Below, piece by piece: positions 8,411 through 25,099 of a DNA stretch of 37,224 nucleotides. This DNA is from Chitinophaga pinensis (GTDB lineage Bacteria > Bacteroidota > Bacteroidia > NS11-12g > UBA955): the NCBI GenBank assembly GCA_945860565.1, contig CAMAQS010000014.1, positions 1 to 37,224 on the forward strand. The letters are read 5' to 3'. Under the pieces are notes generated by a model that made no database searches, was not told the DNA's origin, and worked only from the letters and a program-made list of their open reading frames with translations. Position 1 is the stretch's first letter; every line of letters begins with the position of its first letter. Position numbers and translations under genes: made by a program.

Positions 8411-9733
8411 ATGTCAACCCTTAAAATCCAAATTAAATCCATCTTATTTTTTGCGATTATCGCTTTTTTTAGCACTTCGTCCCTTACTGCACAATTCTAT
8501 TATCCCCCAAAAACAGGAGGAAACTGGGATACTTTGTCCGAAACGCGATTTGGATATTGTAAGCCGCAAATTGATAGTTTATATGCCTTTTTAGACCAAA
8601 CGAATACCAAATCTTTCATGTTGTTAATTGATGGCAAGATTGTTTTAGAAAAATATTTTGACAAATTCACAAAAGACAGTTCATGGTATTGGGCTTCAGC
8701 AGGCAAAACCATGACGGCCGCATTGATGGGCATTGCCAAGCAAGAGAACAAAGTTGATTTTAGTGACAAAACTTCTAAATATTTAGGCACAGGATGGACA
8801 AGTTTAAGTGCACAGCAGGAGGATTCCATCACTGTATTGCATCAATTAACAATGACCACAGGTCTAAATGACCGCGGTGCAAATGCCGATTGTACAGATC
8901 CTTCATGTTTAGATTACAAAGCGGCGGCTGGAACAAGATGGGCTTATCACAATGCACCTTATACTTTACTCGATGGGGTTTTAAGTAATGCAACAGGGGT
9001 AAGCATAAACAATTATTTCTTATCCAAAATTGGTTTGAAAACTGGAATGGGTGGATTGTATGTTAAATTGGATTATAACAATGTATTTTTTTCTACCACA
9101 AGAAATATGTCGCGTTTTGGTCTTTTGTTATTATCTAAGGGGATGTGGGACGGTGCTTCAGTAATAGATTCAAATTATGTGAAAACAATGTCCACGTCTA
9201 GTCAAACATTGAATCCTTCTTATGGATACTTAACATGGTTGAATGGTAAATCCAGTTTCATGGTTCCTGGCGTTCAGTTTTCCTTTCAAGGAAGTTTGAA
9301 TCCATCTGCTCCAAATGATGTATTTATGGCTTTAGGCAAAAATGCCCAATTGATAAATGTAGCGCCATCCAAAAAAATGGTATGGGTACGCATGGGTGAC
9401 TCTCCAGAAGAAAAAAATGAATTGGTTTCTCCATTGTACAATGAAGAAATTTGGAAACGGATAAACGCCTTAAAATGTGCGCAAAATAGCCTCACTGAGG
9501 TTCAAAAAACACAAATTTCTTCTTTCCCAAATCCAGTAATAAAAGGTGCTAAGCTGTCGATACTAGGAATTCCAATGGAAGGAAAAATGATTTCAATGAG
9601 TTCCGTTGATGGCAGAAAAGTATTGTCTTTGCAAATCCAAAATAATTCAATAGAAATTCCTGAGCATTTGGCTTCAGGTATGTATCTTTTGGGAAATGCT
9701 CAAACAGGATTTGTAAAAGTTGTTGTAGAATAA
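8411..9733 (+). CDS. Secreted serine hydrolase (beta-lactamase family) with T9SS type A sorting domain
   Basis: Signal peptide; SxxK motif SAGK; YxN motif YHN; C-terminal SSFPNPVIKGAKLSI...LASGMYLLGNAQTGFVKVVVE. Confidence 0.9.
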   Translation: MSTLKIQIKSILFFAIIAFFSTSSLTAQFYYPPKTGGNWDTLSETRFGYCKPQIDSLYAFLDQTNTKSFMLLIDGKIVLEKYFDKFTKDSSWYWASAGKTMTAALMGIAKQENKVDFSDKTSKYLGTGWTSLSAQQEDSITVLHQLTMTTGLNDRGANADCTDPSCLDYKAAAGTRWAYHNAPYTLLDGVLSNATGVSINNYFLSKIGLKTGMGGLYVKLDYNNVFFSTTRNMSRFGLLLLSKGMWDGASVIDSNYVKTMSTSSQTLNPSYGYLTWLNGKSSFMVPGVQFSFQGSLNPSAPNDVFMALGKNAQLINVAPSKKMVWVRMGDSPEEKNELVSPLYNEEIWKRINALKCAQNSLTEVQKTQISSFPNPVIKGAKLSILGIPMEGKMISMSSVDGRKVLSLQIQNNSIEIPEHLASGMYLLGNAQTGFVKVVVE

Positions 9734-22296: not shown

Positions 22297-23847
22297 TTAT
22301 TGTACAATGGGTTGCTTGTCGTCGTTTACAAATGTGTAAGACGTTAATGCAGCATGATTGTCGTTTTCCAACTGTAACCAACGGAAGTACTTAAACCACC
22401 ATTTAATTCTTAAAGAAGGGAAACCTGCTTTAAAATAATTGGTAACCAAAGGATTGGCTTTGAGTGTGATGCTTTTTTGGTTCATTTGTTCCCACAGATA
22501 CAAAATTTCGTTTTCAATTTTGCCTAAAAGTTGAACAGAACTATCAGAACGTCCTGTGCCTAAACAAGAACTGCAAAGTTCTGAGGTGGCAATTTCGAGG
22601 GCTGGGCGAACACGTTCACGGGTAATTTGAACCAAGCCAAATTTACTCATTGGCAAAATGGTATGTTTTGCGCGGTCTTTATCCATGGCATTTTTTAATG
22701 CTTGGTGTAATTCCTGCTTTTTCTTTGGGTCTCTCATGTCAATGAAATCAATGACAATGATTCCACCCATATCGCGTAGCCTTATTTGACGAGCAATTTC
22801 ATCTACCGCTTCTGTATTTACTTGAAAAACGTTTTCGTCTCTATTTTGTGGATCGAAAGAGGTATTTCCACTGTTTACATCAATTACGTGTAAAGCTTCG
22901 GTGTGTTCAATTACCAGATATGCTCCGCCACTAAAAGGCACGTTTTTACCAAACGAACTTTTAATTTGTCTGGTAATGCCATATTGATCAAAGATTGGGA
23001 CTTTCCCTTGGTACAGTCGAAGGATACTTTTGGTATCTACTTTATATTTATCGAGTGTGGTTTTGAGGGATGCGTGTACTTCTGTATCCTCAGTAGTAAT
23101 TTGAGTAAAGCTATCGTTTAAAATATCGCGAAGCAGCGTATCCAAACGATTTTCATTGTTTGCAATGCGTTCTCCGAATGAAGCTTTTTTAAGACCAATG
23201 ACCAATTCGTTCCATTTGCGGAGAAGGTCACGGAGATCTTTATCTAGTTCTTCGAGTGCTACACCTTCGGAAACAGTGCGGATGATAACACCAAAATTTT
23301 GGGGTTTAATACTTTGGGCGATTTCTTTTAATCTGGCTTTTTCTTTGGTGTTTCCAATTTTGCGGGAAACTGAAATGGTTTTAGAAAATGGCACAAGAAT
23401 AAAGTACCTACCAGGAATGGAAAGATCGCAAGTAATTTTTGGTCCTTTATTGGCTATAGGTTCTTTGATAACCTGAACCAAAAGGGGATCGCCGGCTCTA
23501 ATTATTTGTCCAATTTTCCCTGCTTTGTTTGTTTGCTCTTCGAAGTCGAATGCATCAAGATCGGCTGGTATTTGTCCGTTTTGACGTATTAGTTTGAAGA
23601 ACTTTTGAAAGCTTCGAATATTTGGACCTAAATCAAAATAGGTAAGAAACCCATCTTTTTCGGACTTCAAATCTACGAAGGCCGCATTGAGCGAAGGGGA
23701 AACTTTTCTTACTTTACCTAGATAGAAATCACCCACCTGAAAGGCGGCATCAAATTGTTCTTTATGGAATTCCGTTAGTTTTTTATCGGAAAGCAGGGCA
23801 ATTTCTAAACCAGACGAATTTTTTTGTATAACTAATTCGTTTGACAA
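22297..23847 (-). CDS. rng: Ribonuclease G/E family (Rne/Rng), TTG start
   Basis: AFVDLKSEKDGFLTYFDLG (S1 domain), VIDVNSGNTSFDPQNRDENVFQVNTEAVDEIARQIRLRDMGGIIVIDFIDM, zinc-link CSSCLGTG. Confidence 0.97.
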   Translation of the reverse strand: MSNELVIQKNSSGLEIALLSDKKLTEFHKEQFDAAFQVGDFYLGKVRKVSPSLNAAFVDLKSEKDGFLTYFDLGPNIRSFQKFFKLIRQNGQIPADLDAFDFEEQTNKAGKIGQIIRAGDPLLVQVIKEPIANKGPKITCDLSIPGRYFILVPFSKTISVSRKIGNTKEKARLKEIAQSIKPQNFGVIIRTVSEGVALEELDKDLRDLLRKWNELVIGLKKASFGERIANNENRLDTLLRDILNDSFTQITTEDTEVHASLKTTLDKYKVDTKSILRLYQGKVPIFDQYGITRQIKSSFGKNVPFSGGAYLVIEHTEALHVIDVNSGNTSFDPQNRDENVFQVNTEAVDEIARQIRLRDMGGIIVIDFIDMRDPKKKQELHQALKNAMDKDRAKHTILPMSKFGLVQITRERVRPALEIATSELCSSCLGTGRSDSSVQLLGKIENEILYLWEQMNQKSITLKANPLVTNYFKAGFPSLRIKWWFKYFRWLQLENDNHAALTSYTFVNDDKQPIVQ

Positions 23848-23863
23848 TGGCTAATAAATTGAC

Positions 23864-23953
23864 TTATTTTTTCTTATGACGATTTTTACGCAAGCGCTTT
23901 TTTCTTTTGTGCGTTGCAATCTTATGTCTTTTTCTTTTCTTTCCGCTTGGCAT
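23864..23953 (-). CDS. 29-aa highly basic small protein; candidate ribosome-associated (COX24_C / bS22-like)
   Basis: ATG at 23953 to TAA at 23864-23866: MPSGKKRKRHKIATHKRKKRLRKNRHKKK. 20 of 29 residues are K/R/H. Below the ORF track size cut-off. Lies 16 nt upstream of rng on the same strand. Confidence 0.85.
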   Translation of the reverse strand: MPSGKKRKRHKIATHKRKKRLRKNRHKKK

Positions 23954-23974
23954 AATATCTTATATTTTAGTGTC

Positions 23975-24784
23975 TTATTTTTTTGGTTGTTGCCTCTGTG
24001 TTTTCACTGCCAAATTCAAATAAACCTTGGCATTTACAGAGTCACCCATTTGTCCATATAAATCGCTTGTTTCATACAACCAATATGGATTTTGGGGTTG
24101 CAAAGATACTAATTTTTCACATTTTTTCACAGCTTTTTGAAGCTGATTTGATTTTTTTAGTAAATTAAGGTGTATGAAATTGAGTTCCACGTTGTTACTA
24201 TCGATGGTGTATGACTTTCTCAGTGTGCTCAAAAATTGCATCGGTTGGTTTAAAAACTCGCTTTGATATATGATCAGGGCATTGCGCAATGACATGTTGT
24301 TCGAGTCTTTACTTAGGCCTTTGTCTATCCATTTTTTACCCTGTTGAAATAAATAATTACGGACAGTTTCATTTTCTGAATATCCAGCACCTACAAAAAC
24401 CAACTCGCGGGCAACTTCTTCTATGTTGCCTTTTTTGAAATACTCAAATTGTTGGGATTTTAAATGCGCAAGCAGCGGACCATTATTTGTTTCAGTGGCC
24501 CATTTTATGGCCAGTGTTAAACTATCGGTTTTTAGGTCTTTGGGGGATGTTAGAATGGTTTTACCTATTTGACTAGGTGGTTTGGTTTTGTTGAAGAGGG
24601 AAGATAAAAACTCCACTAATTCTACTTCTTTGGTGGGCACAGCATTACCCATTGGACCCGGTTGTACGGAACCTTTATCGGTTGGTTTTCCAGTGGAAGT
24701 TTTCCAGCGATTCGCTGTAAATAGAACTGTCAAACCAACAGCCAGTATTAGAACGACTATTTGCTGGTTTGACAGTTTTTTCAC
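23975..24784 (-). CDS. Membrane-anchored tetratricopeptide-like protein
   Basis: N-terminal TM/signal anchor IVVLILAVGLTVLFT; C-terminal TPR-like helices KAVKKCEKLVSLQPQNPYWLYETSDLYGQMGDSVNAKVYLNLAV. Confidence 0.8.
   Translation of the reverse strand: MKKLSNQQIVVLILAVGLTVLFTANRWKTSTGKPTDKGSVQPGPMGNAVPTKEVELVEFLSSLFNKTKPPSQIGKTILTSPKDLKTDSLTLAIKWATETNNGPLLAHLKSQQFEYFKKGNIEEVARELVFVGAGYSENETVRNYLFQQGKKWIDKGLSKDSNNMSLRNALIIYQSEFLNQPMQFLSTLRKSYTIDSNNVELNFIHLNLLKKSNQLQKAVKKCEKLVSLQPQNPYWLYETSDLYGQMGDSVNAKVYLNLAVKTQRQQPKK
24725..24777 (-). repeat. Perfect 13-bp inverted repeat inside the first codons of the TPR-like gene
   Basis: AACTGTCAAACCA (24725-24737) and TGGTTTGACAGTT (24765-24777), 27-nt spacer; the gene starts at 24784. 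Confidence 0.85.
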
Positions 24785-24796
24785 AATCCGTTAAAT

Positions 24797-25099
24797 TTAT
24801 TTAAGTCGCTCGTTCAAGCTCTTACTTTCTTTTACCAGTTGTGCAAATTCTTTAGCGGGCTTAAAGCGCGCTACAAAATGTGCAGGTACAACCAAGGAAG
24901 TATTTCTTTTGATGTTACGGGCAACCTTTGTTTTTCTTTCTTTTAGTTCAAAAGTGCCAAAACCTCTTAAATAAATGTTATTTCCATTGATCATAGAATT
25001 TTTTACTACAACAAATAAGTTGTCAATAGTGTCCGCTATTGCAGCCTTTTCAAGACCAGTGCGCACGGCAATCTCGTTTACGATTTCAGACTTTGTCAT
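24797..25099 (-). CDS. HU/IHF-family DNA-binding protein
   Basis: MTKSEIVNEIAVRTGLEKAAIADTIDNLFVVVKNSMINGNNIYLRGFGTFELKERKTKVARNIKRNTSLVVPAHFVARFKPAKEF. Confidence 0.96.
   Translation of the reverse strand: MTKSEIVNEIAVRTGLEKAAIADTIDNLFVVVKNSMINGNNIYLRGFGTFELKERKTKVARNIKRNTSLVVPAHFVARFKPAKEFAQLVKESKSLNERLK

Follow-up and report, generated by a model that had tools for sequence, protein, structure and literature searches.

The small ribosomal protein bS22 has been reported in mycobacterial and Bacteroidetes ribosomes, and the bS22 of Borrelia is closer to the Flavobacterium johnsoniae form than to the mycobacterial form (PMC10618245). The protein occupies a pocket of 16S rRNA helices h2, h27, h44, and h45, from which it contacts helix H68 of the 23S rRNA, and it is found in the same pocket in F. 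johnsoniae, mycobacteria, and Borrelia (PMC10618245). The 70S structure of F. johnsoniae includes bS22, whose contact to the 23S rRNA is described as a new intersubunit bridge (PMC10085706).

Here, we analyzed a stretch of 37,224 nucleotides (“the window”) that encodes a 29-residue basic peptide between a TPR-like gene and a gene for an Rne/Rng family ribonuclease. We consider it highly likely that this ORF is the bS22 gene of a Bacteroidota bacterium and that its product would act as a structural clamp in the 16S rRNA pocket. The gene and its surroundings are organized as follows.

22297–23847, minus strand: rng-like gene, Rne/Rng family ribonuclease (PF10150, E = 3.6e-93; TIGR00757 above cut-off); TTG start 16 nt past the bS22 stop
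23864–23953, minus strand: bS22 gene, 29 codons, ATG to TAA, peptide MPSGKKRKRHKIATHKRKKRLRKNRHKKK; identified by its frame, PDB match, conservation, and codon-level selection
23954–23974, minus strand: leader 5′ of the bS22 ATG, 21 nt, A/T-rich, no Shine-Dalgarno sequence, A at −3, essentially unfolded
23975–24784, minus strand: TPR-like gene, weak TPR matches only (PF13181 at E = 5.2e-4, under the cut-off); 21 nt separate its end from the bS22 start
24797–25099, minus strand: HU/IHF-family DNA-binding protein gene (PF00216, E = 7.5e-23)

The 29-residue ORF and its identity

The 29-residue ORF is a real gene. The first-pass annotation had described an ATG-to-TAA frame on the same strand as rng; this frame lies exactly at 23864–23953 and is encoded on the minus strand. 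It had also been described as nearly filling the gap between its neighbors, and indeed, of the 127 bases that separate the end of the TPR-like gene (23975) from the TTG start of rng (23847), it takes up 90. The proposed basic content of ∼70% holds if histidine is counted (K+R+H, 69%), but not for lysine and arginine by themselves (K+R, 59%). An ATG start is present in 78 of 79 bS22 loci, preceded by an A/T-rich leader. The features of the window's leader agree with Bacteroidota initiation as described in PMC6847099, and bS22 would be translated from this A/T-rich, unstructured leader without the help of a Shine-Dalgarno sequence.

The peptide is conserved well beyond the closest relatives. Within the same genus, family, and order, it occurs once each in 52 of 57 genomes, and it is single-copy in all 43 of those relatives that combine a completeness of at least 90% with a contamination of at most 5%; the five misses are genomes of 58–82% completeness. 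Across the phylum, 147 of 148 sampled Bacteroidota genomes carry one copy with 79–100% identity and no internal stops, the sole genome without a bS22 match being 99% complete (G203). Seventeen positions are invariant across diverse family members. Twenty-one distinct DNA sequences underlie the 22 loci that share an identical peptide; per site, the mean pairwise difference is 0.08 at the first codon position, 0.00 at the second, and 0.41 at the third. Because the peptide is kept while synonymous sites change, the protein is under purifying selection. The idea of a translated gene would have had to be given up, according to the first-pass annotation, if the peptide were not conserved or if conservation were confined to the nucleotides; the phylum-wide distribution and the synonymous-site variation are the reverse of this. 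A Bacteroidota-type bS22 with 97% identity was also found on a contig titled as a Streptomyces griseus MAG, which is probably mislabeled or part of a mixed bin.

When the PDB was searched with the window peptide, three distinct sequences were matched, each of them end to end. These are chain 5 of 7JIL, named S22 (E = 2.3e-10), the sequence of which is common to four further PDB entries; the AURKAIP1/COX24 domain-containing protein of 9I5V (chain 10) and 9I5X (E = 4.4e-10); and Borrelia bS22, chain V of 8FMW (E = 3e-6). With a family profile built from 19 relatives, all three matches were strengthened (E = 4.3e-15 with the profile). We take the 7JIL chain to be the F. johnsoniae protein, and an identical peptide is present in a genome of the phylum. 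The sequence shared by 7JIL chain 5 and its companion entries appears under two depositor names, 30S S22 and 50S L38. The bL38 of PMC10618245 is a different protein, located in the large subunit.

The earlier guess of a small ribosomal protein of the bS22/COX24 type was correct, as borne out by the whole-length match to bS22 chains and by the bS22 reported in a ribosome from the same phylum. The finding is real, was rightly interpreted, and is already known: the assignment as a ribosomal protein stands, whereas its possible novelty does not, because bS22 has been described previously.

The COX24_C model (PF08213), suggested in the first-pass annotation as a test for the family, did not match the window peptide above its curated cut-off of 23 bits and gave only sub-threshold matches, with E = 0.063 at best, in 6 of 19 relatives; it is a poor detector for bS22 here. 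Scans of the window peptide against Pfam, NCBIfam, and PHROGs returned no match, so family libraries are uninformative at such a length. The window bS22 represents an annotation gap, that is, a phylum-wide ribosomal protein whose small size puts it out of reach of most gene callers and which the Pfam model misses.

The whole assembly from which the window derives gave no match to bS21, which is present in all 37 relatives searched alongside (37 of 38 genomes in all). A real loss of bS21 was rejected, as these 37 relatives have the protein and the assembly is 87.7% complete; we take the absence as assembly incompleteness.

Neighboring genes and other explanations for the peptide

Co-expression with RNase G had been suggested from the position of the ORF. 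In the near-relative loci, a set picked by best match and not a random sample, rng directly follows bS22 on the 3′ side in 30 of 30 cases (gaps of 12–40 nt), and HU lies upstream of bS22 in all 29 loci with a long enough contig. This strict adjacency is what would be expected if the peptide were a ribosome-assembly or RNase G-associated factor that takes part in 16S maturation together with rng and is not a stable part of the ribosome. However, bS22 persists in distant loci, and among 20 of these (12 kb each) HU is nearby in 13, whereas just 4 have rng within about 6 kb. An operon with rng that is conserved across the phylum was not found in this distant set, and the scarcity of rng makes functional coupling to RNase G weak. 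Moreover, in 70S structures the relatives of the peptide have been modeled as stable chains. Having considered functional coupling to rng, we downgraded it on account of synteny, and we regard a role as an RNase G-associated factor as very improbable. The proposed co-expression keeps its footing in the near loci, but not in the distant ones; the RNase G link is a lineage arrangement, and HU is the steadier neighbor. In the window, HU, the TPR-like gene, bS22, and rng are probably carried on one transcript, an operon suggested by spacing and strand only.

An antimicrobial or cell-penetrating peptide with an action outside the ribosome is an extremely improbable explanation, even though the bS22 of Cutibacterium acnes inhibits the growth of Escherichia coli and staphylococci in disk assays, and also inhibits cell-free protein synthesis in an E. 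coli system (PMC10085706). This activity belongs to the free peptide at high concentration, whereas the peptide studied here is near-invariant phylum-wide, is linked to housekeeping genes, and has no secretion or immunity gene among the adjacent genes. The probability of a chance basic ORF, or of nucleotide-only conservation of an intergenic spacer, is vanishingly small: the frame is short and of low complexity, but the window has one K/R/H-rich short ORF of this type, and 100 first-order Markov simulations of the window produced none; moreover, the confinement of variation to synonymous sites of a phylum-wide peptide refutes this explanation.

bS22 homologues on giant viral contigs

When IMG/VR was scanned with the bS22 family profile, a single contig of 297,623 bases was recovered, which encodes MSGAKKKKPSKISTHKRKKQSRKNRHKTKK. 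A degenerate DNA pattern run on the same collection added a 231,285-base contig with MSGAKKKKKIKIATHKRKKRSRKDRHKTKR and an 18,050-base contig with MSGAKKKKSSKISTHKRKKQSRKNRHKTKK. The viral homologues follow the pattern MSGAKKKK..KI.THKRKK.SRK.RHKTK[KR] and are located at the following positions of the extracted loci.

L080, 5001–5093 (= L162, 9109–9201): viral bS22 homologue
L164, 3342–3434: viral bS22 homologue
L161, 8912–8820: viral bS22 homologue

The MSGAKKKK pattern alone mostly retrieved unrelated frames (L166–L172), which were rejected on reading, and a further candidate (L173) is a chance match. No match was obtained when the phage collection was searched with both peptides by tblastn, but the low-complexity filter probably masks such queries; this negative was given no weight, and degenerate DNA patterns were applied to IMG/VR in its place.

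The two large contigs (297 and 231 kb) each carry a terminase gene as well as a gene for a T4-type Gp23 capsid (PF07068, E about 1e-63) and are therefore phages. Each of them also encodes bS21, a protein for which expression together with late genes has been reported in phages (PMC9723584). The bS21 of the 297-kb contig finds its best matches in the bS21 chains of 9I5V and 7JIL, the entries with the closest bS22 chains, and the capsid of the 231-kb contig is near those of, among others, Immutovirus phages of Flavobacterium. The bS21 and capsid similarities suggest Bacteroidota hosts for the bS22 phages. The phage bS22 peptide matches Borrelia bS22 with an E value of 2.1e-4 and the 7JIL chain with 4.3e-4. 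Between the two most similar phage copies, there are 2, 1, and 10 differing sites at codon positions 1, 2, and 3, respectively, a pattern that, from these few sites, suggests selection on the phage protein.

Phage-encoded bS22 is rare, and no credible bS22 was found among 16 further contigs selected for the similarity of their capsids, most of which are fragments. The case is weaker for a fourth contig, 17,874 bases long and bearing phage tail genes, on which MPSDRKWHRKKVKKHKRKKKRRKQRHKSKNR is encoded at 9557–9652 of the extracted locus (L163) by a frame that starts with TTG behind GAGGAGG and matches Borrelia bS22 with an E value of 0.0035. S22 and COX24 go unmentioned in the main text of a survey of virus-encoded ribosomal proteins (PMC6375957). 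In the part of the literature covered, there was no report of phage bS22, and it may be new.

We tentatively propose that both bS22 and bS21 are encoded by some giant T4-like phages, the hosts of which are probably Bacteroidota, and that these phages may swap both proteins in host ribosomes, favoring phage messages. We hold this exchange to be possible rather than probable, as the genes look real and their function is predicted only. If true, the known phage bS21 strategy would be extended to a protein at the base of h44 and the subunit interface. Functional phage copies would add bS22 to the virus-encoded ribosomal proteins and would make it possible to test, in a concrete case, the simultaneous replacement of two 30S proteins by a virus.

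Proposed role and comparison with known ribosomes

In the proposed mechanism, bS22 would fold into a bent, highly basic helix within the 16S rRNA pocket of h2, h27, h44, and h45, a site taken from the papers on its relatives. The helix would also contact the 23S rRNA (H67/H68), bracing the small subunit at its neck and providing an extra intersubunit contact. In this way, bS22 would fill and stiffen the pocket, which lies at the neck and the base of h44, and would hold the subunits together. By analogy with the solved ribosomes, we infer the same binding and stabilizing role in the ribosome of this organism.

Among the described systems, the window bS22 is most readily compared with that of the F. 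johnsoniae 70S ribosome (7JIL chain 5), which comes from the same phylum, belongs to the same length class (30 amino acids), and aligns over residues 1–29. In contrast to the window peptide, the 7JIL chain has three substitutions in 29 residues (positions 12, 21, and 23) and an extra C-terminal lysine. The AURKAIP1/COX24 domain-containing protein of 9I5V/9I5X likewise aligns over residues 1–29, again with three substitutions. Borrelia burgdorferi bS22 (8FMW chain V) shares the MP.G+KRK start, the THKRKK core, and the RKNRHKK end and sits in the same pocket (PMC10618245), but it stems from another phylum, has a 28-residue chain, and uses a GUG start.

More distant counterparts are related by site. 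The bS22 of Mycobacterium and Cutibacterium was not reached by sequence search with either the window peptide or the family profile; it occupies the same rRNA pocket, and the C. acnes and F. johnsoniae proteins share 37% identity (PMC10085706). mS38 (AURKAIP1) and eL41, neither of which matched the window peptide in the PDB search, are placed at an equivalent site (PMC10618245). Unlike the window bS22, mS38 is longer, and eL41 is a straight helix of about 24 amino acids.
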